Shown here piece after piece: positions 322-62,668 of a stretch of 64,000 bases of DNA (the stretch's first letter is position 1; the number at the start of each line of letters is the position of its first letter). Made by a program: the position numbers and the translations under genes. Below the pieces are notes generated by a model. That model was given only the letters and a program-made list of their open reading frames with translations, was not told the DNA's origin and did no database searches. The stretch covers positions 3,844,001 through 3,908,000 of the forward strand of contig CAKKNE010000003.1 in the NCBI GenBank assembly GCA_918797485.1, in the 5' to 3' direction. The stretch is from Pelagomonas calceolata (lineage: Eukaryota; Sar; Pelagophyceae; Pelagomonadales; Pelagomonadaceae).

Positions 322-345
322 GCTAGTATGTTACCGGACGCTAGC
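322..345 (+). promoter_or_regulatory. 24-bp GCTAG...GCTAG promoter motif, copy 1
   Basis: GCTAGTATGTTAC, then CGGAC, then GCTAGC. It lies 127 bp from the hydrolase start (195) and 222 bp from the NOL12-like start (567) in a divergent spacer. The rest of the 196-566 spacer shows nothing else I can name. Confidence 0.7.
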
Positions 346-566
346 ATCGCTTTGCAGCACGAAACAAAAAGAGCAGGAAGCGCGGCCGTGATCGCCGCAA
401 ATACACGCGGGAGGGCCGACCGTACGCACGTTGCCGCTGTGCTCAAAAAGAGCGACGAGTTTGCGTCGACTAGCAAATCACTGCACGCTGCACTGCGCTG
501 CAGCGGGCGATACCGCGGCGGAACGCCGGCGACGCGACGTAGACACAACAGGACCACCAGTGAACC

Positions 567-1172
567 ATGGGCCGCTCGCAGCGCAGCAACCGCCCACCAA
601 AAATGGTCACGGAAGCCACATTCGACGTCGAGGCGCGAAAAGATTGGCTCCAAGGGTTCCGGAAGCGGAAGCGCGAGCGGCGCCTCACGGGCCTGGCCCA
701 CGGCGCGCTCAAGGCGCGGAAGCAGAAGCTCGCCGACCGCGCGGCGCGGCGGTCGATGCGGCCGCCGCCGGCGCCCGAGCCCGTCGTCCTGGACGAGGCG
801 CCGGCGACGCGCGAGACCGTCGTGCTCACTGACAGCAATGTCGTGGAGCAGTGGGGCGCCGCGGTCACGGTCACGACCACTGTGGGAGGTTTAGACGTGG
901 ACGCCGAAGACGCGGACGCGGCCGAGGCTTTGTTACGCGGAGCCCACGCTCCGCCTCCGAAAAAACGCGTCGACGCGGCCCAGGTCGAAGCGGGCACGCT
1001 CGAAGCCGCTCGACGAAAGGTCGCCCACCTCGGCGCGCAGTCCGCGAAACGCCAGCGCCGCGCCGCCCGGAAACGGGACGCGAACCCGCATTTCAAGGGC
1101 GGCGGCCGCGGCGCGGCGCGCGCGCTACTGGACGGTGCGGCGGCGAAGCGCGGCGCCAAGCGTAAGAAATAA
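567..1172 (+). CDS. NOL12: NOL12/Rrp17-like nucleolar protein
   Basis: A 201-residue basic protein. Residues about 15-40 carry the NOL12 family signature, FDVEARKDWLQGFRKRKRER, followed by a long basic, helix-prone stretch and a Lys/Arg-rich tail that would act as a nucleolar signal. In yeast the homologue Rrp17 is a 5'-3' exonuclease for large-subunit rRNA processing; that role is carried over from the family and is not visible in the sequence. Length matches the usual 200-230 residues. No intron is needed. The stop at 1172 is only 12 nt from the stop of the convergent WD40 gene, so the two 3' UTRs must overlap. Confidence 0.8.
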   Translation: MGRSQRSNRPPKMVTEATFDVEARKDWLQGFRKRKRERRLTGLAHGALKARKQKLADRAARRSMRPPPAPEPVVLDEAPATRETVVLTDSNVVEQWGAAVTVTTTVGGLDVDAEDADAAEALLRGAHAPPPKKRVDAAQVEAGTLEAARRKVAHLGAQSAKRQRRAARKRDANPHFKGGGRGAARALLDGAAAKRGAKRKK

Positions 1173-1184
1173 GTAGTAGTAGTC

Positions 1185-2450
1185 TTACATCACATTTTTT
1201 GGGTCGGTGGCTTTATCGAAGATCAGTGGTGGCGGCGGCGCCGCCGCGACGGCAGGCGGCGGCGCCACGCGGAAGGCGACGACGTCGCCGCACTCGTAGA
1301 CGGCGGCGACCACGTCGGGGCCAAGCCATCCCAAAAAGGCCGGTCTTTCCGAGGCCCCGGACGGGTGCGCCGCGTCGAGTTGCGGGAACAGGAAGAACTG
1401 CGGTTTCATATCTTCCGGCCGCTGCGGGTGGCCCTGGCCGCCCTTCTTCAGCCGGCCCCGCAGGTTCCAGAGCCGCACCACACCCGTTGAATCGGCGGTG
1501 GCCAGGATCGCGCCGCCCGGCGCCCACGCGACGCACCGCTCGCGCGACCCGTCCTGGAAGCCCAACACCCTAGGGATGTAGTCCGGCCCGTCGCCCCGGT
1601 CCCGTCGATAGGGGTGCGGTGGCCGGTCGCCCGAGAAGTCGAAGCATGCTGCGCGTGCGCCCGTCACCGCAAGAAATGCACCGTCCGCGCTCCAGGCCAG
1701 CGCTTCGCCGTCGCTCTGGCAAAACGACTGGAGCGACGCCGCGAGATCCTCGCCGCCCCAGACCTGGACCGCCCCGTCGAAGGTGCCCGCCGCCACAAAG
1801 TCCCCTCGGGCCAGGAGCGACCGCAGCGGCCTCTGGGAAGCGTAGCGCCAGTTGACCTCGCCGTCGCGCTGCACCAGCACGCAGACGCAGCCGTGCGCGA
1901 CCGCGTAGCCTCGGAACAGACCCGCGGACGCGTCGCAGAGCGCGCGCACCGGCGCCTCGAAGGTTACGGCATGGATCAAATCGCCGGTCAACGAGCAGCA
2001 GTGGACGAGCTTCCCCGCGCTGGCCACGAAGTCGTCGTCGAGCGTAGTGCAGCTTGTCGCCGCGACCTGGCGCGCGCGCTTGCCCGCGACCGCCTCCGGC
2101 GCCACCGCGTGCACGACGGCCAGCGTCCCATCCGTCCGCACGACGCGCGCGCGGCCGTCGTCGAAGGCCGCCACGACCCAGGCCCCATCATGCGAGAAGG
2201 CCATCGCGTTCGGGCCCTCGTCGGCAATTTGCGGCGACCGCGCGGTGATCTCGCCGGCAGTATCCACAAAAACGACGGCGCCGTCGTCCGTCGCCACGGC
2301 GAGGCAGGCGCTCGACTGCGCGACGCAGGCGACGCCGCCGACGTCCGCGCGCCAGCTCACGGCGAGGCCGCCCTTCTGCACCACCGGCCGCGGCGCGGCG
2401 GCCGGCGCCGGTCGCGCGGTCGACGACGGGCCGACGAGCGTGCGGCGCAT
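1185..2450 (-). CDS. WD40-repeat beta-propeller protein
   Basis: A 421-residue single-exon protein. After about 25 Ala/Pro-rich residues come repeated blades with WD40-type turns: ACLAVATDDGAVVFVDTAG, AMAFSHDGAWVVAAFDDGRARVV, DFVAAGTFDGAVQVWGG, ALAWSADGAFLAVTG and CVAWAPGGAILATADSTGVVRLWNL. Six or seven blades fit the length. It is probably a scaffold for a protein complex; partners cannot be read from the sequence. No organelle leader or membrane segment is present. It is divergent from the Sfi1-like gene and convergent with the NOL12-like gene. Confidence 0.75.
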   Translation of the reverse strand: MRRTLVGPSSTARPAPAAAPRPVVQKGGLAVSWRADVGGVACVAQSSACLAVATDDGAVVFVDTAGEITARSPQIADEGPNAMAFSHDGAWVVAAFDDGRARVVRTDGTLAVVHAVAPEAVAGKRARQVAATSCTTLDDDFVASAGKLVHCCSLTGDLIHAVTFEAPVRALCDASAGLFRGYAVAHGCVCVLVQRDGEVNWRYASQRPLRSLLARGDFVAAGTFDGAVQVWGGEDLAASLQSFCQSDGEALAWSADGAFLAVTGARAACFDFSGDRPPHPYRRDRGDGPDYIPRVLGFQDGSRERCVAWAPGGAILATADSTGVVRLWNLRGRLKKGGQGHPQRPEDMKPQFFLFPQLDAAHPSGASERPAFLGWLGPDVVAAVYECGDVVAFRVAPPPAVAAAPPPPLIFDKATDPKNVM

Positions 2451-2832
2451 CTGTGCGGCTCTTCAGTGATGCTCTGGCGTGTCTTGACCGTTCGCACGCT
2501 CGCACGCGGCAGAGATCTCGCGGGGCGTCGAGTAGGCGCGCTACAGGAGCTCGTTTGCTAGGGCGAGACCTGGCGCAACGACGCCAGCAGCCACAGCGCT
2601 GGATATATAGCTTGCGTACCGCCTACACGCCGTTTCGAATCAATGGCTGGCGCTCGTGACGAGCCGTGCGGAGAGCGGCTCGACGCGGTTAAAACGGGTT
2701 TTACACACTGTTCCAAAGCGCTCAGGCGACGACCTAACCGAGGTCCAGCCCACCCACGGTTACGTTGCGATCCAACATTTTGAGCCTACGGTCCGTAACC
2801 CGACCCCGCCAAAATGACAGCAAATCAATCAA
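2451..2832. other. Divergent promoter spacer without the 24-bp motif
   Basis: The 382-bp gap between the WD40 gene (minus) and the Sfi1-like gene (plus). It holds a TATA-like TATATAG near 2604 and no good copy of the GCTAG...GCTAG motif. No coding potential was recognised. Confidence 0.4.
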
Positions 2833-5607
2833 GTGAATAATCACGTCCCAAACGGCGCAGCCCGGGCGCCGCGGCGATGGAGGACGACTACTCTGACATT
2901 GATGTCATACTGTGCAGCCGCAGCGTCCGCCGCAGCCCCCGCAGCCCGCCCCATGATGCCCAACCAAAAAAGCATCGTCGCTCACGCCACGCCGCGCAGG
3001 TACGACCAGGGCCAAGAAAAGGGACGAGAAAGGCTGCGCCTAGGACGTGTCACGCCGTCCGCCGACGAGGTGAAGAGCTTGGCTCAGAGAGCACTGAACC
3101 GGAGAGGCGCCCGCGTCTTCCGGCCCCTCGTCGAAGAGCCCCTCTGGTCTCGAGGCATCAAGGCCGTCGGCGCGGGAAAGATAGAATGGGACCGGCTGCG
3201 CGAACGCTATTTAGATGACGAGTTCGACGAGTTCCGACCCGGAAGAGATAGGTTCCTCGTCGTCGAGTGCGACGAACCCTACACGCCGAAACGAAGGTCT
3301 TCTCAGGTGTCACCACCATCGTCCATCGAGGCGTCATCACCGATAAAACCGCTGCCCGAGTCGCCCGCGTTACATTTCGACGACCGACAGACGGCAATCC
3401 TCGAACGCGCGACGACGGCCTGGATCAATCGTACCGAAGCGACGTCGCCGACTGGTGGTAGATATGTGGCGGCTTTGCGGGCCGCGCGGCACGACGTCGA
3501 CCGACTGCGGGCCGCGCGGACGGTGGCGGGCGTCTTGGAGGACGGCGACGTGCGGCGGATCGTGCGGCGCTTCCGGAGCTGGCGGCGCTCTAGTGGATTG
3601 ATGGAGGCGCGGGCGGCCTTCTCTAAGAGATGTGGAGCCGCGGTCGTGCGGCGGCGTCGTGTAGAGGCGTTCTCTTTGTTGAAGGAGCATGCGGCTTCTG
3701 TGCGAGCGTCGCGCCGCGGTGCCGCGGCGGCGTTATGTGTCGCGGCTTTGAGAAGAGGCGTGCGGCGACAGATGAGGGCCGCGTTTCGTTTTCTGCGCGC
3801 CGCGAGCGCGTCGACGAACACGCAAGTGCGGGCGCTGCGCCACCTCGCCCGGAGCAGCGCCGCGAAACACTGCGCGATGGCCTGGCGGACCTGGATGCGA
3901 GCCGCGTTTCGTCTCACGGGCGCCGCTTCGACACAAGTGCGGGCGCTGCGCCGCCTCGCGCTCAGCAGCGCGGGCAAGCGCCGGGCGATGGCCTGGCGGA
4001 GTTGGTTGCTGGTCGTGCGGCGCGCGACGGTCCTCAAACGCGTCGCGGCCATGATTCGGCGGGAAGCGGCGAGAAATGGGCTGCGGGCTTGGCGCGCGGC
4101 GGCCCGGCGGAGGTCTACAATCGAGGACCGGGCCTTGTCATTACAAAGGCGCGTCGCGGCGACATCAATCAGACGGCGCAAGCGCCGAGCCCTGGCCACC
4201 ATCATAAGTTTCGGGCGACACAATTCCACGCTCCGCCACGTCGCGGCGACGCTGGGCGGCGTTTTGCAGAGGACGCGGCACAAACGGCTCGCGCGCGCGC
4301 TCGCTTCCTTAAAGACCGTGGGCGCGGCGCGCGCTTTACGGAAGCGGACGCTGCGCCGCGTCGCGGCCAGACTCGCCCACGGCCGCGCGCTCCTTGCTTA
4401 CCAGGCCTGGCGCCGCCGCGCGACGCTGGAGAGCCGTTGTACACAAGCTCTCCGAAGCGTCCTGCGGGCCGCGGCCACGATCAACGTGCGGGCCGCCTTC
4501 TTCCTCCTCAGCCGCAACGCGCGGCGCGTCGGCGAGCAGCGGCTCGGGCTGGTCTTCTGCGCCGCGGCCCTCGAGCGGACGCGCGAGCAGCGGCTGCGGC
4601 GGGCGCTGGCGAAGCTTTCCAAGAACGCCGCGGGCCTCAGGGCGGCGACGTCCGTCGCTCTGTGCGTCCTCGCGTCGACACGGGCCAAGCGCGACGCGGC
4701 GTCAATCCTCTGCCGCGGCGCGCTCCGGCGGACGGTCACGGCCCTGCTGCGGCGCGGGCTCACCGCTTTTGTAAAACAAGCGGCCGCGGCGCAGCAGCTC
4801 TGCGCGACCGCTTCGCGTAAACAGGCGGGCGCGGTCATCTGCACCGCAATGGTTCGAAGAACGGCGACCACGCAAATGAAGAGTGCCTTGGTAAGGCTGC
4901 GAAGCCACACCGACCGGTGCGACCGCCGCGTGCGCTCCTTGCGCCGCATCTTAGGCATCGCACGCGACGCGGCGCTCCGAACTGCGGTATGGAGCTGGCG
5001 CGCCAACGTTGGGGTGGTCGGCGTCCTCGCGAAGCAAATTCTCAATCACGAGATCGCCGCGCGCTACCTCGGCGTCGTCAGCCGCGCGTCGAAACGCAAT
5101 TCTACCAAGAGAGCCTGGCGCCGCTGGAGCTGCACGGCCGCGCGCCTGACCGGGCGGAATCGGCTCGTGTGCGCTCTCGCGCAAGACCGGAGAAGTAGGT
5201 CCGCATTTGCCGCCTGGCGGTCTTCGGTAAAGGACGACCGCGCGAAGCGCCTGGGCGTGTTCGTCGGCGTTCTGGTCGGGACGGCGGCGCGCCACATGAA
5301 AGGACGTGGATTGCGGCGCTGCTTCGGCGAACTCAAGATGCGCCAGCGGCGCGGCGGCGCGGCGCGGCGCGTCCTTTTGTTGTTCGCGACGGCGCTCGAG
5401 AGCCGCGTCGAAAAAGCGTTCGATCAGTGGGCGCGGGACGCGTCCTCGCAGAAGCGCCGCGCGGGGCTGCGGCGGCGCCTCGAGGGCCGGTTGCTGGGCC
5501 GGGCCTGGGTGCGCTGGCGCTCTCATGTGGAAGTGGACCGGGAGCTGCGCCTGCTCCAGCGGGGCGTGCGCGCGCTCGCGCGGCCACGCATGCTCGTGGC
5601 CGACTAA
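2833..5607 (+). CDS. Sfi1-like centrin-binding repeat protein
   Basis: A 924-residue very basic protein. From about residue 220 to the end it is made of roughly 30-40-residue helical units carrying an A-W/F-x-x-W motif (AMAWRTWMRAAF, AMAWRSWLLVVRR, GLRAWRAAARR, LLAYQAWRRRA, AWRRWSCTAAR, SAFAAWRSSV, AFDQWARDASS, AWVRWRSHV). This is the architecture of Sfi1 and related centrin-binding proteins of basal bodies and centrosomes, where each unit binds one centrin; that role is inferred. The start is uncertain: ATGs at 2833 and 2953 share the frame, while an ATG at 2877 opens another frame (MEDDYSDIDVILCSRS) that could be a first exon. Two adjacent units (about 3775-4010) are nearly identical and look recently duplicated. 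Confidence 0.65.
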   Translation: MNNHVPNGAARAPRRWRTTTLTLMSYCAAAASAAAPAARPMMPNQKSIVAHATPRRYDQGQEKGRERLRLGRVTPSADEVKSLAQRALNRRGARVFRPLVEEPLWSRGIKAVGAGKIEWDRLRERYLDDEFDEFRPGRDRFLVVECDEPYTPKRRSSQVSPPSSIEASSPIKPLPESPALHFDDRQTAILERATTAWINRTEATSPTGGRYVAALRAARHDVDRLRAARTVAGVLEDGDVRRIVRRFRSWRRSSGLMEARAAFSKRCGAAVVRRRRVEAFSLLKEHAASVRASRRGAAAALCVAALRRGVRRQMRAAFRFLRAASASTNTQVRALRHLARSSAAKHCAMAWRTWMRAAFRLTGAASTQVRALRRLALSSAGKRRAMAWRSWLLVVRRATVLKRVAAMIRREAARNGLRAWRAAARRRSTIEDRALSLQRRVAATSIRRRKRRALATIISFGRHNSTLRHVAATLGGVLQRTRHKRLARALASLKTVGAARALRKRTLRRVAARLAHGRALLAYQAWRRRATLESRCTQALRSVLRAAATINVRAAFFLLSRNARRVGEQRLGLVFCAAALERTREQRLRRALAKLSKNAAGLRAATSVALCVLASTRAKRDAASILCRGALRRTVTALLRRGLTAFVKQAAAAQQLCATASRKQAGAVICTAMVRRTATTQMKSALVRLRSHTDRCDRRVRSLRRILGIARDAALRTAVWSWRANVGVVGVLAKQILNHEIAARYLGVVSRASKRNSTKRAWRRWSCTAARLTGRNRLVCALAQDRRSRSAFAAWRSSVKDDRAKRLGVFVGVLVGTAARHMKGRGLRRCFGELKMRQRRGGAARRVLLLFATALESRVEKAFDQWARDASSQKRRAGLRRRLEGRLLGRAWVRWRSHVEVDRELRLLQRGVRALARPRMLVAD

Positions 5608-5640
5608 TACACTATACACTGGCAAACATACTTACAGGCG

Positions 5641-5676
5641 AGGGGTCAGACAAGGGGTCAGACAAGGGGTCAGACA
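5641..5676. repeat. Three perfect 12-bp tandem copies
   Basis: The unit AGGGGTCAGACA is repeated exactly three times. The stop codon of the neighbouring minus-strand methyltransferase lies inside the third copy, so the array forms the start of its 3' UTR. Confidence 0.9.
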
Positions 5677-6419
5677 GCGGTACCGGCCAGGGCCCACGCG
5701 CCGCCTGGCGAGAGCTGGCGCGCGCCTGCAGCCCGGAGCATGGCCCGCACCCATGGGTTGTTCTGGTGGCTCGAGAAGACCACCTCGCGCCGCGCTAATC
5801 TGGAGACGGCCGCGAACCACGGCCGCGACGCTTCAACGTTGCGGTTCTCCGACGCTACCATTTGAGGCACGCCCGCGAAGGGGATGTAGTACAACACATC
5901 GGAGACGAGCACGACGTCGTACGAATCTGGCCAGCCGTCCGGCAGGGCGAGCGTCGCGGCATCGACGACCTCTACAAAACACCGCGGGCACCGCCGCCGC
6001 GCCCGGCGGACCATCCGCGGGGAGATATCGGCGCCGAAGTGCGCGGCCTGTGATTGCCGCGCGGCGAGCTGCGCGAGGACGAGGCCACGTGAGCACCCAA
6101 GGTCCAGCAACGACGAATAACCGGGGTGCCTTTGATTGATTTGCGCGACGAGCATCGCTTGCGTCCCATTATGTTCGCGCCAGTGGCGCGTCGCGCCGCC
6201 CGCGTGGACGCGGTCCCACACGGCCGGCGTCGGCAGCACGTAGGCGAGCCACACCTCGCCCCGGACCCACGCCTTCGCTAGGACCGCGACGGCTAGCACG
6301 GCGGCGGCGCCGAGGGCGCACCAGAGCCTCCGTCGCGGCCGGCGTCGGGCCGGCGCCGTGTGCTCGACGAGCGCGTCATCATTGGTCGCGGGGTCCGCCG
6401 TGGCGAGGCGCGCCCGCAT
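5670..6419 (-). CDS. Membrane-anchored class I SAM methyltransferase
   Basis: A 249-residue protein. Residues about 30-50 form one transmembrane anchor (LWCALGAAAVLAVAVLAKAWV). The Rossmann methyltransferase core follows: motif I LLDLGCSRG near residue 105, an acidic strand GADISPRM near 129, and motif IV VVLVSDVLYYIPF near 170. It ends with a short basic region and no obvious second domain. The class is clear; the substrate is not. A type II single-pass topology with a lumenal or cytosolic catalytic domain is possible. The stop lies inside the 12-bp tandem repeat. The gap 6420-6704 to the next gene shows nothing recognisable. Confidence 0.75.
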   Translation of the reverse strand: MRARLATADPATNDDALVEHTAPARRRPRRRLWCALGAAAVLAVAVLAKAWVRGEVWLAYVLPTPAVWDRVHAGGATRHWREHNGTQAMLVAQINQRHPGYSSLLDLGCSRGLVLAQLAARQSQAAHFGADISPRMVRRARRRCPRCFVEVVDAATLALPDGWPDSYDVVLVSDVLYYIPFAGVPQMVASENRNVEASRPWFAAVSRLARREVVFSSHQNNPWVRAMLRAAGARQLSPGGAWALAGTAV

Positions 6420-6704
6420 GGTCGCGCGCGGCCTCGCAGAGTGTTGGGTAGTGGTGTTCCGCTCGGCTGGCCACTGGGATCGATGCGCTCGGGCAGCGAT
6501 GAGTGCTCGGGCAGCGTCGCCACCGTGCCCGCAGGCAGAGATGCGCTTGCACCAGGTCCTTAGGACCCTTAGGTCCTCTTGCCTGCCCGGGCCGGCGCGT
6601 GACTCGCGTGAGAATCAGGATCGGGTTTTACTCGAAACCCGCTACGCCCCGGTATCATTCATCCCATGGGGCCGGTTGCGCTTTTCTTTACAACTTGAAG
6701 ATTG

Positions 6705-7622: not shown

Positions 7623-7797
7623 CCTAGGAGGTCGAGGGGCAGCCTGCACAATCATCTCTGCACAAGGCCATCTCGTCCAGCATTCGTGCGCAAAATCCGC
7701 GGCCGCGCCCGGGCAGCGCCGGCAACGGCTTGGGCAGCCCCGGCAACGTATCGGCTCGCTCCTGGGGCCAATTCTAGCGGCACCGCAGCGCTTCGCA

Positions 7798-7821
7798 GCT
7801 AGCGGCCCGTAAGGCTCTAGG
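7798..7821 (-). promoter_or_regulatory. 24-bp promoter motif, copy 2 (diverged)
   Basis: On the minus strand: CCTAGAGCCTTAC, GGGCC, GCTAGC. It lies between the divergent kinase-like gene (start 7622) and the tetraspanin fusion (start 7916). The spacer also holds GGGCAGCC-type octamers near 7700-7740. Confidence 0.55.
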
Positions 7822-7915
7822 AATGCCCAACGATCGGCAGGGCGCTGGACCGACAGCCGAACCCAAGAAGCTGCCCCAGAGCCACAACAGCCCCAGGCAC
7901 GCCGCCGACGGCGCC

Positions 7916-10047: not shown

Positions 10048-10246
10048 GCCTGGCCTACGCTGTTTGGTGTGGTGCTTCTGATGACAGTCCGGGCTGCCTG
10101 CGGACCGTCACGGCTGCGAACCGGCTGCCCCTCGTTTTTTTTTGCCCCGCGAAAATTGCAACAAAACGGGTTTTACTGCCCGCGGACCGATTTGTTTTGA
10201 CGAGTGCGCGTAAGGCAGAGCCACAAACAGACAAGTTACTCACTCT

Positions 10247-10762: not shown

Positions 10763-10988
10763 GGCTCAAAGTTCTAGTGGTTCACGCAGAGCAGCGACCT
10801 TGTCTAGTCCTCCTCACCCGGACCAGTACGTCTGCGAGGGCGACCTGCTTCAGACCTACTACTGGCGGCGCGGGTCGCGGCCGCACGTCCTCAACGCCGC
10901 CTGGAATTTTAGGGGTTAAGCGCAGCCTCACGCAGTCCCAGCACCGGCTTTTGGCGAGTAATCACTCGCAAAGGCCGTCTACGATTTA

Positions 10989-11012
10989 ACTAGCGTCATG
11001 TAAGACACTAGC
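10989..11012 (-). promoter_or_regulatory. 24-bp promoter motif, copy 3
   Basis: Minus-strand reading GCTAGTGTCTTAC, ATGAC, GCTAGT. It is centred between two divergent starts, 227 bp from the gene at 10762 and 203 bp from the ThiO-like start at 11215. The remainder of 10763-11214 shows no gene. Confidence 0.75.
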
Positions 11013-11214
11013 GAACCTTTGTTTTGCTGAAGCTCAGTGCTGGCACATCAGCGCTAGCAGCTTGGCGCTGTTTAACGCTTTCGACACGCCACAGCACGCC
11101 TGACCTACGAGCGCTGCGCAAGAGCGCTCAGCGAGCAGCGGTGGTTACGCCGCCTACTCGCGCACGCGCCCTGAGCCCGACGAGCGACTGCCCGCGCGGC
11201 GCACGGACGACAAT

Positions 11215-14718: not shown

Positions 14719-15101
14719 GACGAACCGCGGTTTCGCGCGTTTCGATGCGCAGCGGTCGCAGGTGTCGCTGAGCGGTGACTCGGCCGCGTCGGCGCGCCGC
14801 GGACCGCTCTCGTCACGTGAGTATCTGGCTTTTTTTCCTCGCTGCGCTGGGGCTGATCGCAGCGCAGGCGTCTCGCGGAGCGTCAGACTCGTCGGCGACC
14901 GAATTAAATGTATGAGAGGGGAGTGCGAGCGCAGTGGCTCCAATCCTGGGACGCCTGGTACGTGCTGTTATAGCACGCCCAGCAGTGAGATGAGACGTGC
15001 GCGACGACGCAAAAACCTTCCACGAAGGAGTCGTCCAGGCGACGAGACGACTCCTCCGGGACGTCTGCGGAGCTCGGAGAGAGCGGCGGGTCCCGCGGTA
15101 C

Positions 15102-15120
15102 GCTAGCTACGGGCGCTAGG
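15102..15120 (+). promoter_or_regulatory. Degenerate copy of the promoter motif
   Basis: GCTAGCTACGGGCGCTAGG keeps both GCTAG ends and the TAC but is about four bases short. It lies 92 bp upstream of the TilS-like start (15194) in the divergent spacer 14719-15193, where I see nothing else. Confidence 0.4.
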
Positions 15121-15193
15121 CACAGCCGCAAAATAGCTCTGTGCCAATCGCATAAATGCCCAAACATGTCTGAGTAGCCTCGCGAAAGAAGCG

Positions 15194-17092
15194 TTGATGT
15201 TTTGGGTCATGCTCCTCCTGGCCCGCCAAGCCAGAGGCTGGCGCGCCGCCACAGCAACACTGCGCCGCCTCACACCGCGCTGCGCGACGTTCGCACCACT
15301 CCCGGAGGACACAACAAAAGACGTCCTCGACTACTGGTTCACCGACGCCGAAGCGAGGCAGCGCTGGTTCGCCAGCACGGCCGCGTTCGACCATCAAGTG
15401 TCAGACCGCTACGCGACCACGCTATCAGCCATCAGCGACGCTGATGAAGCGGACGTAGCAACGTGGGCGGCGACGGCGCCCTTGGATGATGTCTTAGCCC
15501 ACGTGCTGCTCTGGGACCAGGTGTCGCGGCACCTGGCGCGCGTCTCCGACACCGATCCAAGCGCTCTGGGCCCGCTCGCGATGGCGGCATCAAGAGCTAC
15601 ATTAAGCAGAGCCGACGACCTGAATGCGGAGCGCCAGGCCTTTTTGCTCATGCCGCTGCGGCACAGCTTCGACCGTCGTATTCTCGAGGACGAAGTGCTC
15701 CCGCTGTCGCGGAGGTGCTGACTCAGAGCAAAATGAACTTGAACTTGACGTGGTCGCGGCGATGGCGTCCTCGCGATGCCACTTCGCGTCGATGGCGTCT
15801 TCATGATCACATGAGAGTGCACGCGTCGCGCGAATGTACACAGAGGCAGTTTCGCGACGGCGTCCGTGCCACACAGGTGGGCCAAGGATGCTCAGGACTC
15901 CGAACGAGGCGTCTGGCGCCGCTTCGACGCCGCACTATGTAGGGCTTTACTGAAACTGAAGACCAAGGACGGCCGTCCACAGGAGACAGACAAGCCGGCG
16001 AGTTGGGAACCCTTCTCTACTTTACTAGCATCGTCACCTCCGTTCCGCGCGGACGCTTTTGATGTGAAACCCGACGCCGTCGGTTCATTAGCAGCGCACA
16101 AGGCCGCCAAGAAGTTTTTACTAGAAAGACTCGAGGATAGTAACACCACAAAACTAATCTGCTCGCTGTCTGGAGGCGTCGACTCCGTCGTGCTCACGTA
16201 TTTAGTATCCCGATTGCTACGGACGACGCCCGCGCTCAAACATTTGTCGCTGGAGGCCGTGCACGTCGACTACGGGAACCGCGACACTTCGAGAGATGAA
16301 GCAGAGTTTGTACAAGCATATGCATCGTGGCTCGGCGTGCCGCTCTGGCTGCGATCTATCGATATTCTACAAAAGAGCGGCGATAATGTCGAGAGGGCGG
16401 CCTACGAAAGTGTCACGCGCGACGCGCGTTTTTGGACGTACGAAGAGGCCTGTGGGAGCGACGGCGTCGTGTTGTTAGGACACAACCGCGACGACACCTT
16501 CGAGAACCTCTTCGCCAACATCAATAGGAGGCAGCACTACGATCAGTTAAGAGGCATGACTGCTGTCAGCGAAGAGCGCGGCGTGAGGACGTGGCGTCCA
16601 CTACTCGCAATAGACAAATCTATGATTTATGACGCCGCCTCTGCTTTAAAGCTACCGCATCTCGCGGACTCGACGGACCCGGCGTGTCAAAGAGGCGTGT
16701 TTCGGGATCGCTGGCTTCCGGTCGTGCGCGACCGGCAGCCGCTCTTGTTACCTGGCTTAGAGGCGTTGGCGGACCACGTGTCGTTTCTCACGGAGGTCTG
16801 GCGCGAGAAGTGTTCAGAGTACGTCTCGACGTGCGAGCGGTTCGGTGGCGGCGCGTCGCTGCCCGTCGAAAGTTGGATGTGCGACGCGCCGTCGTCGTTC
16901 TGGGTCGACGTGTTAAGACGGCTGGAGGCGCCGCACCGGCCCTCGAACAAAGCGCTGGAGAACCTCCAGAGCTGGTTAAGGAGGCAGCGTGCGGCGCGAC
17001 GGTCGTCGACCTGCGAGCTCGGGGCTGTCATGCGCGCCGAGTACGTTCCGGACGAGGACGTGCTCCGCGTGTACTTCCTGGACGAGACTTAA
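15194..17092 (+). CDS. DUF924 domain fused to a TilS-like PP-loop ATPase
   Basis: Two exons (15194-15714, 15877-17092) join in frame to 578 residues. An Arg/Ala-rich leader suggests organelle import. Residues about 40-210 match DUF924 (VLDYWFTDAEARQRWF ... HVLLWDQVSRHL ... LLMPLRHSFD). After residue about 290 comes an N-type ATP-pyrophosphatase domain with SGGVDSVVLTYL, the conserved HVDYGNR strand, LGHNRDDTFEN and WRPLLAIDKSMIY. This fits tRNA(Ile) lysidine synthetase (TilS), which makes lysidine at C34 of an organellar or bacterial tRNA(Ile); the exact substrate is inferred. DUF924 is usually a stand-alone protein, so the fusion is unusual. The splice replaces a premature stop and restores SRRWAKDAQ. 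Confidence 0.75.
15715..15876 (+). mobile_element. Introner, family C, in the DUF924-TilS gene (162 nt)
   Basis: Starts GTGCTGACTCAGAGC, has the AATGAACTTGAACTTGACG module and CACATGAGAGTGCACGCG, and ends GCCACACAG. Same module order as the ThiO and hydrolase introns. Confidence 0.85.
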
Positions 17093-28190: not shown

Positions 28191-28357
28191 CGTGTTCGCT
28201 GCGTGCTCTGGTTTCGGCTGCGGCAGCGTACGCTCCCGTTTCGCGCGCTCAGGCTTGCCGGCACGAATGGCTGGTCCAAGAGCAGGTCTTTGACGATCCC
28301 AGCGATGCGCGCCGATGGCTGCGCGGTGCTCGCGTCTAAGCCGGGCTAAAAGCTGCA

Positions 28358-28381
28358 ACTAGCGTATGTAAAGACACTAGC
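28358..28381 (-). promoter_or_regulatory. 24-bp promoter motif, copy 4
   Basis: Minus-strand reading GCTAGTGTCTTTAC, ATAC, GCTAGT, 168 bp upstream of the DEAH helicase start. The rest of the 28191-28668 gap has no accepted gene. Confidence 0.75.
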
Positions 28382-28668
28382 TTTACAGACACTTTTTCTT
28401 TTGACGACGTCGAGCTAACGATCCCCGGCACACGGCGCGAGGTCGATATAACGCAAGACTAGTTAGGTGAAGACCATTAAGCCATACCGCCGCCGCCGCT
28501 CCAAAAAAGACGAAGTCAACACTGCATACGCGACTCGGACCTGTAGTACAAGACGGGACAATCTGAAGAAGCGCATTTTGAGTAAACCCCTGTAATATTA
28601 TAGGCGTCGCCCCGAGCCTTGGAATGATTACGCGCATAAGTAAACGCAAATCATCGAATTAAGAAGAA

Positions 28669-30120: not shown

Positions 30121-30794
30121 GGCTGCTGCCGGTGCTGCCAAGCCCTTTGAAGGGAGCAGGTCTGCCTTGGGGCTGCCGGTACGTGCCTTGGGGCTGCCGC
30201 AGCGGTGGCGCTTTGAGGTGTACACGGCCGGGGCAGGTCGCACGCGGTTGTGGCGTGGCCCGGGACGACGGCTTCGGGCAGCAGCGCCCGATGCCTTCTC
30301 TTTTTTTTGACATGCATCTACCGCGCGGGTTTTGCCGCGACGCGCGCGACGGCGTTTGCGGTGCCAGGTAAGCGTCAGCGGAGGCGCCACGGGCTACCGC
30401 GGGAGCCCCGCCACCTCGGAGGAGGGGACACGCGCCGCCGCGTAAGCGGCTCGCGGCTTGGGCTTTGCACCGGCGGCCGCGCGGGAGCTCTCTCGCGCGA
30501 TTCTTGCGCCCGTACGCGCCGACAGCGAGTCTGTCCTCACGGGTTTTACAGGTGCAGATTTGTTGCTTCTGGGCAATCAGGCGCTCCAGGCCCAGTCTGA
30601 GGCCACCTGACCGTATAGACATAACTCACAACAAAGACGGACACGCGTGGTTGCCAAGAACCGTGCAAAAAGCCCTGGTCTGCTGAGATTCAGCCCTGAG
30701 AGCAGGTCAGATATTTTTAACCTGCGGCATCCGGAGGGCGGCGCCCCGCTAATTCAATCGTAATCGTCGCACCACCGCTCGCCCTACCACCACC
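30121..30794. other. Divergent spacer without a recognised gene
   Basis: A 674-bp gap between the choline-transporter-like gene (minus) and a small plus-strand gene. It contains two GGGGCTGCCG octamer copies (near 30170 and 30190) and no 24-bp motif. ORFs crossing it look like shadows. Confidence 0.4.
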
Positions 30795-31121
30795 ATGAGC
30801 GCGGCCGGCGACCGGCGGCTCGACGACGCGCACGAGGCCGACCGGCGGACCGTCCGCGCCGTCGACGACGCGCTCCTCCGCGCCTTCTGCGCCGTCCAGG
30901 CGCTCTGCGCCGGGGCCATCGGCGTGGCCTACCCGGCCGTGCTCTGCGCCCTGGCGACGTGGATCTTCATCTTCACGGGCATCGTGGTTTGCAGAGAACT
31001 GATGCACCCGGGCCTCCCTCACATCGTGCACGCTCGTATCGCTCTCGTTCTCAGACCACTCATGCTCAGTCTCAGCTTCAGAATCCATCCGTCGTGCGTA
31101 GCCAGGCGCGCGACTTACTAA
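30795..31121 (+). CDS. Small membrane protein, unknown (3' end uncertain)
   Basis: A 108-residue ORF with a favourable start context (CACCACCATGAG). Residues 1-28 are charged, then residues about 30-68 form one or two membrane segments (AFCAVQALCAGAIGVAYPAV and LCALATWIFIFTGIVVC). Codon third positions are almost all G or C up to about codon 65 and then become mixed, which suggests that coding ends or splices near GGCATCGTG (about 30990). An ORF on the opposite strand (30717-31127) encodes an acidic start but has poorer codon bias. No family recognised. Confidence 0.4.
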   Translation: MSAAGDRRLDDAHEADRRTVRAVDDALLRAFCAVQALCAGAIGVAYPAVLCALATWIFIFTGIVVCRELMHPGLPHIVHARIALVLRPLMLSLSFRIHPSCVARRATY

Positions 31122-31147: not shown

Positions 31148-31171
31148 CCTAGCGTCCGGTAAGACACTAGC
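31148..31171 (-). promoter_or_regulatory. 24-bp promoter motif, copy 5
   Basis: Minus-strand reading GCTAGTGTCTTAC, CGGAC, GCTAGG, 190 bp upstream of the gene starting at 31361. A 15-bp direct duplication (GCCTGCTCTCCGGTG) lies between the two, at about 31319-31348. Confidence 0.75.
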
Positions 31172-31360: not shown

Positions 31361-32431
31361 ATGGAGCCGAAGCCATGCGACAACAATGCTGAAAGTACCG
31401 CGCTGGACCAAGAACTGGACGAGCTGACCTTAGGACCCGACACCGACCGCGTCATGGCTGTGCTCTCCTTAAAGCTGGCGCAGATCAGTCCTATGTCGCG
31501 CGCCAAGCTGACGCATTGCTCCCGCACGACTCGCGAGGTGGTCCTCGAGGCCTGCCCGCTGCCGCTGCAGAGCTGGGTCGCCTCGCCGAACAAAGGGATC
31601 CTCTACGAGGAGCCCCGCGCCTGGCAGGCGCACTGCTATGCCGTGTGCTGGCACGTGCAAGGTCATGAATATATGGAGCCCCGGGCGGCGGGGTGCCCGT
31701 CGGTCGCGCCGTGCGCGCGCGGCGACGGCGCGGGGCTATGGCCGCCGTATCTGGAACGACCGAGCGGCGACGAGGGCCTGCACCTGCGCGGCGGCGTGCT
31801 CATCCTAGCCGCGAGCGACGAGCTCGACTACAAGCGGGAGTATTACGAGGAGCAGCGCGCACTGCTCCCGCACGAGCGTAGCGGGTCGAGGGTCTCGCCG
31901 GTGCCCACCCTCGCGGTCACGCTGCACTGCCCCGCCTTTTCGGAGGTGTACATCCGGTCCGAGGCCGCCAAGGCCGCGTGGGGCCGGTGGGAGGCCTACT
32001 GCGAGGCGAACAACGTCCCCAACATCCGCGGACGGTGCCCCCAGTGTCCCTTCCTCTGGCTCTACCCCCGGGCCGTCCTGGTCAAGATCTGCAGCTTCGC
32101 CGTCGAATACGGCTGCATGATCGACTGGGTCCTTGCGGTCGTGGCACTGGCGCGGGGGGAGGAGTTCTGGGAGCGCGGCGACCGCGAGCCCATCACGTGG
32201 GCGTGGCTCGAGAACAACGTCCTCTTGAACGACTTGAAGTACGATCACGCCGTGCGGCCCGACCTGGTCGAGCAGGGCTACGACAAGAACTACGTGATGC
32301 TCGACTCGGTCCCGGAGGCGCTGCGGGACTTCCTGCGGCGCAAATGGAAGTGCAAGTGGGCCCAGGCCGAGTACGACGACCGCATGCAGTTCATCAAGTC
32401 GAAGCAGGAAATCTTCCAGTTCTTCAGCTGA
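31361..32431 (+). CDS. Unknown globular protein
   Basis: A 356-residue product from the ATG at 31361 (MEPKPCDNNAEST); a more upstream in-frame ATG at 31184 is considered too close to the promoter motif. Residues about 30-65 (RVMAVLSLKLAQISPMSRAKLTHCSRTTREVVLEA) are helical and recall an F-box or similar adaptor helix pair, but I cannot confirm this. The rest is rich in Trp, Tyr and Cys (CPQCPFLWLYPRAVLVKICSF, MIDWVLAVVALARG). No membrane segment or catalytic motif is certain. It ends 42 nt from the convergent ankyrin gene. Confidence 0.5.
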   Translation: MEPKPCDNNAESTALDQELDELTLGPDTDRVMAVLSLKLAQISPMSRAKLTHCSRTTREVVLEACPLPLQSWVASPNKGILYEEPRAWQAHCYAVCWHVQGHEYMEPRAAGCPSVAPCARGDGAGLWPPYLERPSGDEGLHLRGGVLILAASDELDYKREYYEEQRALLPHERSGSRVSPVPTLAVTLHCPAFSEVYIRSEAAKAAWGRWEAYCEANNVPNIRGRCPQCPFLWLYPRAVLVKICSFAVEYGCMIDWVLAVVALARGEEFWERGDREPITWAWLENNVLLNDLKYDHAVRPDLVEQGYDKNYVMLDSVPEALRDFLRRKWKCKWAQAEYDDRMQFIKSKQEIFQFFS

Positions 32432-33139: not shown

Positions 33140-33299
33140 CGATGCTGAGCAGCAGGTGCCAAAATGCCACTGTGGGGTTAGCGCTGCCAAACCGCTGGAC
33201 TGGCTGGACTGGTCGCGTGCACAGGTGCGTCGACGGCGTAAAAATGATCTGTTACTGTATCGCAGCGGGCAAAAAAGCAGGCGCCGCGCGGCCGCATGT

Positions 33300-33323
33300 G
33301 CTAGCGGCATGTAAGACACTAGC
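33300..33323 (-). promoter_or_regulatory. 24-bp promoter motif, copy 6
   Basis: Minus-strand reading GCTAGTGTCTTAC, ATGCC, GCTAGC, in the divergent spacer 33140-33531, 161 bp from the ankyrin start and 209 bp from the hydrolase start. Three GGGCTGCC octamers lie between the motif and 33532. Confidence 0.8.
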
Positions 33324-33531
33324 CAGAAAGCCAAAACGAGTTTGCGCCGCGGCTACCGAGAAAGAAGCAGCTTCAGGAGGGCTGCCCGTAGTCGCGTGCT
33401 AGATCTTGGCCGCGCAACTGAGCCTCGCGATCTCTCGGCTCCGCCCGGCGGCGCGGAACCGGTTGGGTGCCAGGGGCTGCCCACGATAGCGCGACGCCAG
33501 ACAAGGGCTGCCCGGCAGTAGACCCGTGAAA

Positions 33532-48529: not shown

Positions 48530-48615
48530 GTAAGTGTTTTTGTTTGCTAGTCGTCCGCGGCCGGTCTTAGGCGGTGCTGAGGCGCGCTGAAGCCCGTTCG
48601 CGCATCTCGATCACT

Positions 48616-48638
48616 GCTAGTGTCTTACGGCTGCTAGC
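48616..48638 (+). promoter_or_regulatory. 24-bp promoter motif, copy 7 (23 bp)
   Basis: GCTAGTGTCTTAC, GGCT, GCTAGC, 203 bp upstream of the SNF2 start. Nothing else is seen in the spacer 48530-48840. Confidence 0.8.
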
Positions 48639-48840
48639 TAACACGCAGATCGTCCCTCCTCTTGCACGCGGTTCCGCTGCTCACAGGAGTTGAGTTGAGC
48701 AACGCGCGTTACGCTACGCTGGTAGCACAGCGTCGTTGAGTCGCTGGCCGAAGGGCGTTTACATACGCGCGATTTTGAAGCAGTTACAAGCAGCAAGGTT
48801 GCAGGAGGGCTGTAAACGCAGCACGCGGACGCATTGAAAC

Positions 48841-53223: not shown

Positions 53224-53488
53224 AGCTCGCCGCGCGCGATCTTACGCGGCAGTACGGTGCTGCGGCAGTCTTTGCCAAACGTCTTGTCCACTGATGCCCG
53301 CGCTGGGGGCCAAAATGGGCTGTGGACAAAGGAATGCTCTGCGAGCTATTTAAGCCTACGCAGCCAATAGCCGTGCGATTTGAAGCCTTGATGGGCTGGT
53401 GCACTCTATGAAGAGTGTGTAGCTCGGATTTGAGACGCAGCCACGCCGTCGGGGCCGAGATAAAGCTGTCCACAGAGGGCTATCGTGG

Positions 53489-53512
53489 TCTAGCGGCCTG
53501 TAACACACTAGC
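53489..53512 (-). promoter_or_regulatory. 24-bp promoter motif, copy 8
   Basis: Minus-strand reading GCTAGTGTGTTAC, AGGCC, GCTAGA, 266 bp upstream of the RBR ligase. Nothing else is seen in the spacer 53224-53532. Confidence 0.7.
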
Positions 53513-53532
53513 AGCAAATTTAGAACAGTATA

Positions 53533-55041: not shown

Positions 55042-55246
55042 CGATACGGCTCGTCGACGGCGCACGCGTGCGCGTCGGCTGGGTTGTTGGGCAGCAGGCT
55101 GGGAGTGCTTGTGCCGACCTCGGTTTCGCCTTCGACGCGTGCGCGGCAGCACGACGATAGGGAGAGCAGGCCTGGAGAGTGCCAAGATGGAGCGAGATGT
55201 GCCTAGCTTTCAAACTAGCCACGCGTCGGCTGCGGCCAAAAAGCTT

Positions 55247-55269
55247 GCTAGTGCCTTACCGCCGCTAGC
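55247..55269 (+). promoter_or_regulatory. 24-bp promoter motif, copy 9 (23 bp)
   Basis: GCTAGTGCCTTAC, CGCC, GCTAGC, in the divergent spacer 55042-55437, 206 bp from the J-protein start and 169 bp from the transporter start. Confidence 0.75.
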
Positions 55270-55437
55270 TAGCTCCGGCGCGCCAAAATCTGGGCTTGGT
55301 ATACGCCGCTGGGCAATATCAAGCAAGATTAAACGTACACAGTCCGTCGACAAGTAGCCAGGCCAGAGACTGAGACGAAGAGCCCGTCCCCAGCTGCGCT
55401 ACAAAGCGAGCACACAGCTGTACCGGCCGCCCGCTGG

Positions 55438-56872: not shown

Positions 56873-56959
56873 AGCGAGTAAGGAGGAGTCAACTCGCTTC
56901 CATGTCGTCGCGGCGGCGGCGTTGAGGGGTTCTCTCGATGGGATTGGGTTTTCTCATTT

Positions 56960-56983
56960 GCTAGTGTCTTACAGGACGCTAGG
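56960..56983 (+). promoter_or_regulatory. 24-bp promoter motif, copy 10
   Basis: GCTAGTGTCTTAC, AGGAC, GCTAGG, 278 bp upstream of the double-SANT gene. Nothing else is seen in the spacer 56873-57260. Confidence 0.8.
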
Positions 56984-57260
56984 AGATTAGGCGCTTCAAT
57001 GTTGGCTTGAAGCGATCGCTGTCAGCCCAGCCGGCCAGCGCGCATAAATAGATACGCGCGAAGGAAACTCGCAGCGCAGCAGATCCCAGCGCGGAGCTCC
57101 CGCAGCACACCACACCCCAAAACAGGGAGAGCCTTGTGCCCCTCTCGCAGCAAGGCGAGACCCCGTGCAGCGCGGGCGAGTCAGACGCCGCCCGTGAAGT
57201 CAGGGCGAGCAAGGAGCAGCCTCAACACGCCGCGCGGCCGATCCAGGAGCCAAAGCCAGC

Positions 57261-58439: not shown

Positions 58440-58462
58440 ATAATGTTCGAAACACATATTAC

Positions 58463-59212: not shown

Positions 59213-59394
59213 GGCGATGGTGAGGCACTGCTGTGAGAGGTGGTGTAATTGAACGTGCCTTTGTGACGCACAGAATTGTGCGAAGCTCGCAGCACTTCGT
59301 CTATGATTGATGGCTGATGTCTTCGCGTCGCAAGACGTCGCACAGCGGGTTGTGACGAGCGCTAAGCGGACACTGATGCCCAAAGTTGAGGCGA

Positions 59395-59418
59395 CCTAGC
59401 GTGATCAAACATACTAGC
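59395..59418 (-). promoter_or_regulatory. 24-bp promoter motif, copy 11 (diverged core)
   Basis: Minus-strand reading GCTAGTATGTTTGATCAC, GCTAGG, in the divergent spacer, 183 bp from the FKBP start and 70 bp from the MYND start. A GGGCTGCC octamer follows at about 59456. Confidence 0.6.
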
Positions 59419-59487
59419 ATTGTGGTCTCCTGAACGCTTTGATTGCATCGTATAGGGCTGCCCCCGAGCGAGTTGACCACATACAAG

Positions 59488-60660: not shown

Positions 60661-60759
60661 GGTGATACTTGCTAGTAAGTAAAAATTGCCCTTACTCCAC
60701 TGCCACCGTGATCTGGCACGGCGTGTCGAAGCATCCCCGGGGGCCGCGTAAAAACACAC

Positions 60760-62451
60760 TTACCCGACCGGCGGCGGCAGCATTGGCCGCCGCCGCTTCC
60801 GCCGCCGCGCGCGCGGCTCCGGCGTTCTCAAGTCCAACACGTTCTCCTCGCGGTGCGAGATCTGCACGGGCGCGCGCGCCGCGAAGTAGCCCTTGAGGCC
60901 TTTCCGTTGTTGGTTCGGCGCCCGCTGCGCGACCCGTCGTAGGGCATCATCAAACCGCACGGGGCGCAGCGCGCAGTCGGCGCACGCCGTCAGGACGTCA
61001 CGCTCCTGCAAGGGTCCGGCCGCCGCCGCGAGGGCGTCCAGGGCGTTCCGCGCGAGTCGAGCGGCACATGCGAACGCGTCGCAGGCCACGGCGGGCGCCG
61101 CGTGGTACGCGAATCGGTCGATGGCTTCGATGGCCAAAGGCTTGGAATCGGGTGCGGCGAACTGGACGACCAGCGGCGGCGGGATGGTGTCGAAGCCCGC
61201 GACGGCCCGATGTAAAGTTTGGAGAGCGCCGGTCTCCATACTTGTAAGTTGCCGTTCACATGTCGGCAGCGACACGTAGAGCCGCCCCCTTAGTATAACG
61301 ACGAGCACGCCGCAGGGGTCCCGCCCCTGCAAGCGGTGGCGCAACGCTGACGAAGCGGCCCGCGACCCACTTATACTCGTCGGAAACGCGGAAGCGTGCT
61401 CCCGCATGAGCGACGACACGTTGGCCCCATCAAACACGGGCCCGCCCCTTCGAAACGCGAAGAAGTCCGGCACCCGGGCGTTGGCGGGCAGGACCACCGT
61501 CGCGTTCGGCGCGGAATCAGGCGGCAGGGCCCTGAGAGCGCATCGTGCGCCTGATAGTCCGAGGGCGCGGCTCCAGGCGCCGCGCACGCCGGCCGCCGAG
61601 GACAGCCCCGCGGCCCACCACGGCTTGCGCTCGCCGGACCAGTGGAGCACGCCGTTTCCAACAGTTCCGTTCGCCAATCCGCGCGCGCAGCCGTGGCCGC
61701 CGCCGACCTGGCAGTTCCATGCTATTGATAGGCGCTCGAATTTACCGCCCGTAGCTAGTACGAGCGGCGGGTTCGTCCCGAGCGTAAACGCTTCAGTTTT
61801 CAGATTGAGTTCAAGCCACCGCTCCACGCGCTCCGTCAGCTTCTGCTCCGCCCACCGTCGTAAGTCATAAACCACAACCCCGGCGTTAAACGCGTCCAGC
61901 GCGTCGACGTCGACGCGCGTCTCCCAGAGCAGCTCGAGCGCGTCGGGATTGCTACAATTTAAGAAGTGAGTGCCGCACGCCTTCTTCTCGCGCGCGACGG
62001 CGGCCACGGCGTTCCTACCTCTGGTAAGTGCGTTGCGGACCATGCTCGTGATGTCTCCAATGACGACGGTGTCGCTGTCGAGCCACAGAGCCTTGTCCAC
62101 ATTATCGGGTAGTATCTCTCGGAGGTAGAAGCGCGCGTAGTTCAACGCGTGCGCGAGATAGCCCTTCTTGCCGTGCCGCACCGATACGAGCCGGGCGACC
62201 CTGCGATCCTCCCAGGGCACGACGCGCCAGTCTTCTTGTGGCAGCGCGCATCGTAGGGCCGCCTGGAAATCATGGACGTCCTTTTGTTGGACGATAACGT
62301 GGACCTGGACTTGATTAAGAGCGCCTTCGAACACCGATCGGACGCAGGCCACAACCCCTAGCGCGTGGGAGCCGCTGCCGGCCACCACCACATGAGTTTT
62401 GTCGTCTGAGGCGGTGGCTGCCGCGGCCAGCAGCACGAGTGCGAACCGCAT
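60760..62451 (-). CDS. GT8-family glycosyltransferase, secretory
   Basis: A 563-residue single-exon protein. A cleavable signal peptide (MRFALVLLAAAATASDD) is followed by a GT-A fold: THVVVAGSGSHALGVVACVR, DKALWLDSDTVVIGDI (the DxD metal-binding motif), FNAGVVVYDLRRW and VLHWSGERKPW, the four landmarks of GT8 enzymes such as glycogenin- and GAUT-type transferases. The last 250 residues are unrelated to the core and end in a basic RRRKRRRP tail. It probably adds a hexose or uronic acid in the Golgi or ER; donor and acceptor are unknown. Confidence 0.8.
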   Translation of the reverse strand: MRFALVLLAAAATASDDKTHVVVAGSGSHALGVVACVRSVFEGALNQVQVHVIVQQKDVHDFQAALRCALPQEDWRVVPWEDRRVARLVSVRHGKKGYLAHALNYARFYLREILPDNVDKALWLDSDTVVIGDITSMVRNALTRGRNAVAAVAREKKACGTHFLNCSNPDALELLWETRVDVDALDAFNAGVVVYDLRRWAEQKLTERVERWLELNLKTEAFTLGTNPPLVLATGGKFERLSIAWNCQVGGGHGCARGLANGTVGNGVLHWSGERKPWWAAGLSSAAGVRGAWSRALGLSGARCALRALPPDSAPNATVVLPANARVPDFFAFRRGGPVFDGANVSSLMREHASAFPTSISGSRAASSALRHRLQGRDPCGVLVVILRGRLYVSLPTCERQLTSMETGALQTLHRAVAGFDTIPPPLVVQFAAPDSKPLAIEAIDRFAYHAAPAVACDAFACAARLARNALDALAAAAGPLQERDVLTACADCALRPVRFDDALRRVAQRAPNQQRKGLKGYFAARAPVQISHREENVLDLRTPEPRARRRKRRRPMLPPPVG

Positions 62452-62648
62452 GGCTGCTCAGGGCTTGGGGCGCATCGCTACGAGTGCGGTGTCCATCGCT
62501 GCGGCAGCGTGGTCCGTGCTTGGGGCTGCCTTTTGCCAAGCACAGCTGCATGCAAAAAAGTTTTAGGTTGCGGGTTTGAATCAGCTCGCGCGAGCACTCC
62601 GTTTTCGTGCCGTTGAGCGCTTTCAGAGCTGCCACTGACGCATGTCGC

Positions 62649-62668
62649 GCTAGTATGTCTAAGCTAGT
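62649..62668 (+). promoter_or_regulatory. Degenerate copy of the promoter motif
   Basis: GCTAGTATGTCTAAGCTAGT, four bases short but with both GCTAG ends, in the middle of the divergent spacer 62452-62881 (198 bp and 214 bp from the two starts). Confidence 0.45.

Follow-up and report, generated by a model that had tools for sequence, protein, structure and literature searches.

What purpose does a long word serve when it recurs in the spacers between genes of a marine alga? This question was raised by a stretch of 64,000 nucleotides from the pelagophyte Pelagomonas calceolata (contig CAKKNE010000003.1, G000:C3:3844001-3908000; hereafter the window), in which an initial annotation had marked a promoter motif built on two CTAG blocks. 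The Pelagomonas calceolata genome, as described in the available part of its paper, comprises six nuclear contigs (32.4 Mb), one plastid contig, and one mitochondrial contig; its genes number 16,667, and Hi-C data exist for it (PMC9481584). Our genome-wide counts refer to 32,445,274 bases in 8 contigs. One protein of the window gave 9 relatives at E ≤ 1e-20, and the pelagophyte Chrysophaeum taylorii was among them with 41% identity, in keeping with this class of algae. We confirmed that the motif, 22–24 letters long, recurs thousands of times genome-wide, and found it concentrated in the spacers that contain a promoter. It is probably, in our judgment, the site of one abundant candidate DNA-binding protein or fixed complex, which would serve promoters generally, in the manner of a Reb1/Abf1-type factor.

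A scan of the window with a two-spacing consensus at ≤4 mismatches gave exactly 11 matches, and these were the eleven full sites listed in the initial annotation. Two short forms had also been listed, of which the one at 62649 was retained (spacing 14, seen elsewhere), and the one at 15102 stayed doubtful, as its spacing of 13 lies beyond those scored. The 13-mer GCTAGTGTCTTAC was present exactly at 5 of the 11 full sites and with 1–2 mismatches at 4 more. At ≤2 mismatches it matched the window 9 times against 0.66 expected, a number reached by 0 of 100 shuffles. A larger sample of 304 kb was prepared from the window and 240 kb outside it (200 kb of contig 1 and a 10-kb piece from each of contigs 2, 4, 5, and 6), in which ≤4 mismatches yielded 40 matches, compared with 4 in three shuffles combined. 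Genome-wide, exact GCTAGTGTCTTAC was counted 1,741 times (869 on the forward and 872 on the reverse strand, with 0 on either strand for the reversed control), CTAGTGTCTTAC-N4-CGCTAG 703 and 676 times on the two strands (control 0), and the full motif at ≤3 mismatches 2,374 times (1,220 + 1,154; control 2 and 0). CTAGTGTCTTAC with CTAG 0–24 bases onward occurred 1,134 and 1,213 times (control 0), and CTAGYR-N10-YRCTAG pairs 2,410 times (reversed control 64). The genome is hence predicted to hold approximately 2,400–6,000 sites, the upper figure being extrapolated from 57 sites per 304 kb. The motif is best written as TTGCTAGTGTCTTAC-N2-5-CGCTAGC, where N4 is the commonest and short forms with N0 occur. 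A logo of 31 type-A matches (spacing 18, with two shorter forms included) read TT-GCTAGTGTCTTAC-A-G/T-G-M-CGCTAGC-W. Information was low outside about −2 to +24, and apart from a pair of T's in front and a single A/T behind, the flanks of the 24 bases carried little of it.

The placement of the motif was evaluated against gene models made with a purpose-written gene finder, which was trained on the sample without use of the motif and gave 195 genes in 304 kb. These models delimit 69 divergent, 51 tandem, and 66 convergent spacers, and the divergent and tandem spacers together (120) are the promoter-containing ones. A strict set held the 40 sites with ≤4 mismatches to the two-spacing consensus, and a relaxed set held 57 sites, defined as CTAG pairs 14 or 16–20 apart scoring ≥6 of 11. 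The relaxed sites occupied 37/69 divergent, 15/51 tandem, and 1/66 convergent spacers, with 2 sites in predicted introns and none in the 236 kb of coding sequence. The strict set gave 26/69, 11/51, and 1/66; predicted introns again took up 2 sites, and coding sequence 0. The difference between promoter-containing and convergent spacers (52/120 vs 1/66) corresponded to a Fisher p of 3e-11; in the window, the motif was present in 11/27 promoter spacers and 0/13 convergent ones. A comparison with coding sequence and 3′ spacers had been set beforehand for the claim of a conserved promoter element, and its outcome supports that claim, together with the stated absence from coding sequence and, but for the single case in the sample, from convergent spacers. 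The statement that the motif occupies most gene spacers was too strong, as the fractions above indicate; the window count would reach 13/27 at most, if 31148 and 15102 were added.

Sites in divergent spacers keep to the middle. Their mean offset from it was 0.105 of the spacer length, compared with 0.235 for a uniform distribution, and 0 of 20,000 simulations were as low (n = 38 sites). The median length of divergent spacers was 396 bp with the motif and 495 bp without it. The distance to ATG, taken for the window sites other than 31148 (10 of 11), was 81–289 bp, close to the 70–280 bp estimated at first, and 141–364 bp for 15 of the 16 sites in tandem spacers. Both orientations were used, as had been described. 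In tandem spacers, 11 relaxed sites had the same orientation as the gene and 5 the opposite (p 0.21), while sites along the gene strand numbered 9/11 in the strict set, 10/12 at score ≥9, and 11/18 when pooled with further loci. We claim no orientation rule, because the relaxed and pooled leanings are not significant. The gene toward which a divergent site points was slightly farther away (median 211 vs 183.5 bp), a weak effect (Wilcoxon p 0.08, Mann-Whitney 0.03). The AT content was 0.49 in the 40 bp before the motif centre, 0.43 in the preceding 40 bp, and approximately 0.35 farther off, and a CpG dip was observed around the sites; the motif itself contributes to both. No clear periodicity of the kind expected from nucleosome phasing was visible in these AT and CpG profiles, which were judged by eye without a formal test.

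Conservation was examined in DNA outside this genome. A scan of genome contigs for the full word gave only 5 other records, contigs L009–L013, held in marine bacterial metagenome-assembled genomes. The latter are GTDB representative genomes; MED672 and ERR599032_bin.133 are filed as Spirochaeta, and ERR599052_bin.23 as a proteobacterium. Since parts of all five contigs match the P. calceolata genome at approximately 82–96%, they were taken as misbinned pelagophyte contigs of one or more relatives, and pelagophyte DNA appears to contaminate those representative genomes at least partly. The origin of L010 and L013 is less sure, because a good match covers only about 1.6 of 8 kb and 0.3 of 3.9 kb, respectively. 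The contigs contain 9 scored sites (one each in L009, L010, L011, and L013, and five in L012), and a scored counterpart was located in the P. calceolata genome for 8 of them. L009 is the strongest conservation point, as its core agrees at 22/24 positions while its ungapped flanks agree at 5/24 and 2/22 and are no more alike than chance. The core of L011 agreed at 23/24 (flanks 13/24 and 7/24), and those of L013 and L010 at 24/24 each in better conserved surroundings. The site L012:2199 differs by one inserted base, the spacing in P. calceolata being 19, and L012:4291 has a spacing of 16 in the relative and P. calceolata alike. Exact-pattern scans of viral contigs detected no motif, which leaves a viral origin or use unsupported.

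Some further repeats were seen in the same material. The form GGGATGCCTAGTGTCTTAC, in which GGGATGC directly precedes the motif, has 34 exact genome copies (e.g., C4:4554082-4554100), and a third CTAG lies 10 bp upstream of this extended form in the L012 copy and in that of the P. calceolata locus L038. A dispersed repeat of approximately 157 bp lies at L012:299-455 and 2037-2198 and in at least 39 places of the P. calceolata genome (e.g., C6:2246149-2246304). Its start, TTAC(A/G)GTGCTAGGACTAGTGGGCGG, is located about 20–50 bp past a predicted stop in 4 of 5 placed copies (window 17115, C1b, and two in L012). One copy in a relative adjoins a motif site and is absent there in P. calceolata; it was not counted as part of the motif.

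A second word was found in the upstream regions. Among words without CTAG, AAAACCCG was enriched across all upstream regions before any split into classes (23 vs 2.7 expected). It was present in 0/52 spacers with the motif and 18/68 other promoter spacers (p 1.3e-5), or 0/89 and 23/102 when counted per gene, and it was absent within 350 bp of 19 further motif sites (11 in P. calceolata and 8 in related contigs). This mutual exclusion in the sample suggests two alternative promoter classes, one presumptively marked by the motif and the other by AAAACCCG. The 29 copies in the sample were distributed over divergent spacers (11), tandem spacers (10), coding sequence (5), edges (2), and a convergent spacer (1). 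Within the 400 bp searched, copies stood 57–389 bp from ATG, with 16/24 at 150–270 bp. A T follows the word in 11/22 intergenic copies, and the word is sometimes doubled or inverted; it resembles telo-box or Reb1-like sites. Another word, GGCTGCCC, was enriched upstream but equally so in both classes (24/89 genes with the motif and 25/102 without), and GGCTGCCC / GGCAGCCC were enriched in promoters of both classes in the sample upstream regions.

These observations form the basis of the reading given at the outset, in which a general promoter factor recognizes the motif. From the arrangement of the DNA words we infer protein binding, nucleosome exclusion, and an effect on transcription. The candidate factor would bind mid-way in short intergenic regions, and when bound it would exclude nucleosomes, opening the promoter for one or both genes that start approximately 150–290 bp off. 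A different factor, using AAAACCCG, probably has this role at other promoters. A wider picture can be drawn only tentatively, and we would sooner doubt it than rely on it: a two-way promoter code in pelagophytes. A perhaps lineage-specific candidate factor that reads the unequal pair of CTAG halves would open one set of promoters, many of them bidirectional, and a factor that reads AAAACCCG would open another set, with no overlap between the sets. The first factor may be a tamed transposase or come from some other DNA-binding family that is not known to act at promoters.

Several points weigh against this reading. The motif is not universal, being absent from 68/120 promoter spacers, and the gene models rest on our own simple gene finder. 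Of the 57 sites, two fell in predicted introns, in each case close to the 5′ end of the model, and one fell in a convergent spacer, which is 1,943 bp long and may hide a gene. We think that the predicted intron around site 31148 in the window is a wrong gene model. As for the exclusion, its p-value is optimistic because AAAACCCG was chosen after the enriched words had been inspected, and 5 copies of this word lie in coding sequence. The same 1,943-bp convergent spacer contains both words, 1,314 bp apart, and if the small first exon predicted at 30795 is wrong, both also share a window spacer near 30.1–31.4 kb at 620 bp from each other, which gives p = 2e-4. The related contigs are a non-random sample because they were found via the motif; for comparison, 52/120 promoter spacers carry it. 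Furthermore, there is some turnover of sites, because L012:5353 is flipped in orientation relative to L038:3603 in P. calceolata, which is also one base longer, L012:7636 is a short form with spacing 14 against the full site L038:1348, and the ninth site, L012:462, is matched in P. calceolata only by a sub-threshold CTAG pair with a score of 5. For L012:5353 and L038:3603, an in-place inversion between the motif's own arms is possible.

The presence of the motif in only 52/120 promoter spacers would also suit a regulated transcription factor, for example a day-night or cell-cycle one, with a large specific regulon, and promoter elements of Phytophthora infestans can mark regulated classes according to the available part of PMC3599244. 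We consider such a regulon unlikely in view of the genes beside the window sites, which are of mixed kinds. Pfam searches with segments from 40 window genes out of 41 identified Nop25, FAD oxidoreductase, R3H, ankyrin, SNF2-related, RING/IBR, Myb, FKBP, TPR/MYND, and glycosyltransferase 8 next to the sites, as well as one tetraspanin match below the cut-off; several adjoining genes had no Pfam match. Codon bias was the same in 85 genes with and 92 genes without the motif (p 0.66), and GC3, gene length, and exon number did not differ; the length of the upstream spacer differed slightly (p 0.035). The mixed gene families and equal codon bias thus indicate no obvious single regulon and speak, as weak evidence, for a general role. 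In addition, the constant central position and the exclusion with the second word look like promoter architecture.

The midway position between divergent genes in either orientation could likewise be expected of a chromatin boundary, an insulator, or a replication-linked site that falls between divergent genes incidentally. Such a site would be equally useful between convergent genes, where the motif is nearly absent, and the motif also occupies 15/51 tandem spacers, with 15/16 sites at 141–364 bp from ATG. We therefore regard this explanation as quite improbable.

An imperfect inverted repeat in thousands of near-identical copies could also be explained as what remains of a small mobile element, or as its terminus, spread by transposition. 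The 34-copy subfamily, which extends 7 bases further to GGGATGCCTAGTGTCTTAC, and the insertion of approximately 160 bp that adjoins a site in L012, is related to the dispersed repeat, and is absent there in P. calceolata, can be read in the same way. The flanks hold little information beyond the 24 bases, indicating no larger unit, and relatives did not differ by presence and absence of the motif, since 8/9 sites were kept in place. The 236 kb of coding sequence contain 0 sites, and no target-site duplication was seen by eye, with no test run. A currently mobile unit is hence largely refuted, and we give even an old element very little credence.

The two halves of the motif are unequal. Half-site statistics were obtained for the first 100 listed CTAGYR-N10-YRCTAG pairs, and spacing statistics for the first 100 listed matches of CTAGTGTCTTAC with a further CTAG; contig 1 accounts for nearly all of these places. 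A CTAGT half was joined to a CTAGC half in 99/100 of the pairs, where equivalent independent halves would give about half. With CTAGTGTCTTAC fixed, the CTAG–CTAG spacing was 18 (70 matches), 17 (17), 16 (6), 14 (4), 19 (2), or 27 (1), and 15 was not observed. Among the inner symmetric pairs, 7–16 (30/99 complementary, shuffled 31.8) and 9–14 (69, shuffled 68.9) stood at the level of shuffles. The pairs 8–15 (64/99 vs 54.8, standard deviation 3.6; 2.6 standard deviations), 10–13 (76 vs 71.9, standard deviation 1.8; 2.3 standard deviations), and 11–12 (4 vs 0.6, standard deviation 0.7) exceeded it. The initial annotation had argued that the spacing fits binding of a dimer, and this argument is weakened because the halves are nearly always a fixed unlike pair, not all inner pairs exceed shuffles, and the spacing varies (14 and 16–19, once 27). 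A symmetric homodimer calls for two equivalent halves at a fixed spacing, which were not found; a simple homodimer bound to matching halves is unlikely, and a lopsided complex or multi-domain protein would fit better. Since the second CTAG stands at a varying distance from CTAGTGTCTTAC, this left half, approximately 12 bp long, would be the rigid recognition core of the site, and the right CTAG would provide a second contact with slight play. An RNA hairpin in 5′ leaders, which the partial pairing of the arms at 8–15 might suggest, deserves hardly any weight given that the motif can face either way along genes (in tandem spacers, same orientation 11 times and opposite 5 times) and given the shuffle-level values of the neighbouring stem pair 7–16 and of 9–14.

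Table 1. Positions of the motif and of the second word in the window.
Feature	Position	Strand	Context
motif site, spacing 18	322..345	+	divergent spacer 196-602
motif site, spacing 18	7798..7821	-	divergent spacer 7623-7915
motif site, spacing 18	10989..11012	-	divergent spacer 10763-11214
doubtful short form, spacing 13	15102..15119	.	divergent spacer 14719-15196; beyond scored spacings
motif site, spacing 18	28358..28381	-	tandem spacer 28191-28668; oriented as downstream R3H-domain gene
motif site, spacing 18	31148..31171	-	inside predicted intron 30987-31366
motif site, spacing 18	33300..33323	-	divergent spacer 33140-33531
motif site, spacing 17	48616..48638	+	tandem spacer 48530-48840; upstream of SNF2-related-domain gene
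motif site, spacing 18	53489..53512	-	tandem spacer 53224-53532; upstream of RING/IBR gene
motif site, spacing 17	55247..55269	+	divergent spacer 55042-55437
motif site, spacing 18	56960..56983	+	tandem spacer 56873-57260; upstream of Myb-domain gene
motif site, spacing 18, 4 mismatches	59395..59418	-	divergent spacer 59213-59487
short form, spacing 14	62649..62668	+	divergent spacer 62452-62881; scores as family member
AAAACCCG	2695..2702	-	divergent spacer without motif
AAAACCCG	6622..6629	-	tandem spacer without motif
AAAACCCG	10167..10174	-	tandem spacer without motif
AAAACCCG	30326..30333	-	divergent spacer 30121-30794
AAAACCCG	30540..30547	-	divergent spacer 30121-30794; 620 bp from motif site 31148

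The literature search, with most subscription papers outside it, gave no promoter motif described for the genes of a pelagophyte itself and no name for this word, which agrees with the earlier remark that no named motif is like it. Neither "motif" nor "promoter" appears in the main text of the genome paper (PMC9481584), and the 13-mer string was matched in one paper, on diphthamide genes (PMC3709272, available in part). From the pelagophyte field, the early promoter motif AAAAATGA of the Aureococcus giant virus AaV is described in the accessible part of PMC5917014; it is viral and unrelated in sequence. One HSF of P. infestans binds TTCTAGAA, which contains CTAG (PMC11267843, in the portion available). 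An HSF site was rejected, since no GAA/TTC units flank CTAG here. The INR, FPR, and DPEP elements of P. infestans are, like the present motif, stramenopile promoter elements found by over-representation and belonging to more than one promoter class. As far as the accessible text of PMC3599244 describes them, they are 7-base patterns near the transcription start site with an orientation bias, whereas the present motif is long, stands approximately 200 bp from ATG, and takes either orientation; INR+FPR is apparently lacking in a diatom according to the same text. The motif was not assigned to these elements, as the patterns given there are dissimilar and its orientation in tandem spacers was 11 vs 5 (p 0.21).

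A long, frequent, and well-placed word of this kind is a direct handle, as one DNA bait could reveal the binding protein, and Hi-C and RNA data that are already at hand for the alga could be re-examined at the predicted sites. The exclusion between two words would make the evolution of promoter classes testable far from yeast and animals. Among animal systems, the motifs of DRE/BEAF, M1BP, ZNF143, and NRF1 (fly/vertebrate) mark bidirectional or alternative promoter classes, and we know of no sequence resemblance between them and the present motif. In yeast, Reb1, Abf1, and Rap1 keep nucleosomes off and open promoters. The motif would be comparable with their sites in function, and it shares two properties of general regulatory factor sites, namely enrichment in promoters of many unrelated genes (52/120 vs 1/66, and 0 in coding sequence) and a preferred promoter position, central in divergent spacers. 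It differs from the yeast sites in its sequence and in its build of unequal halves over about 22 bp, with a slightly flexible spacing. It is like them in that one strong motif is found in many unrelated promoters and between divergent genes, with alternative factors predicted at different promoters; the yeast factors are the subject of PMC7618759 and PMC6602560.

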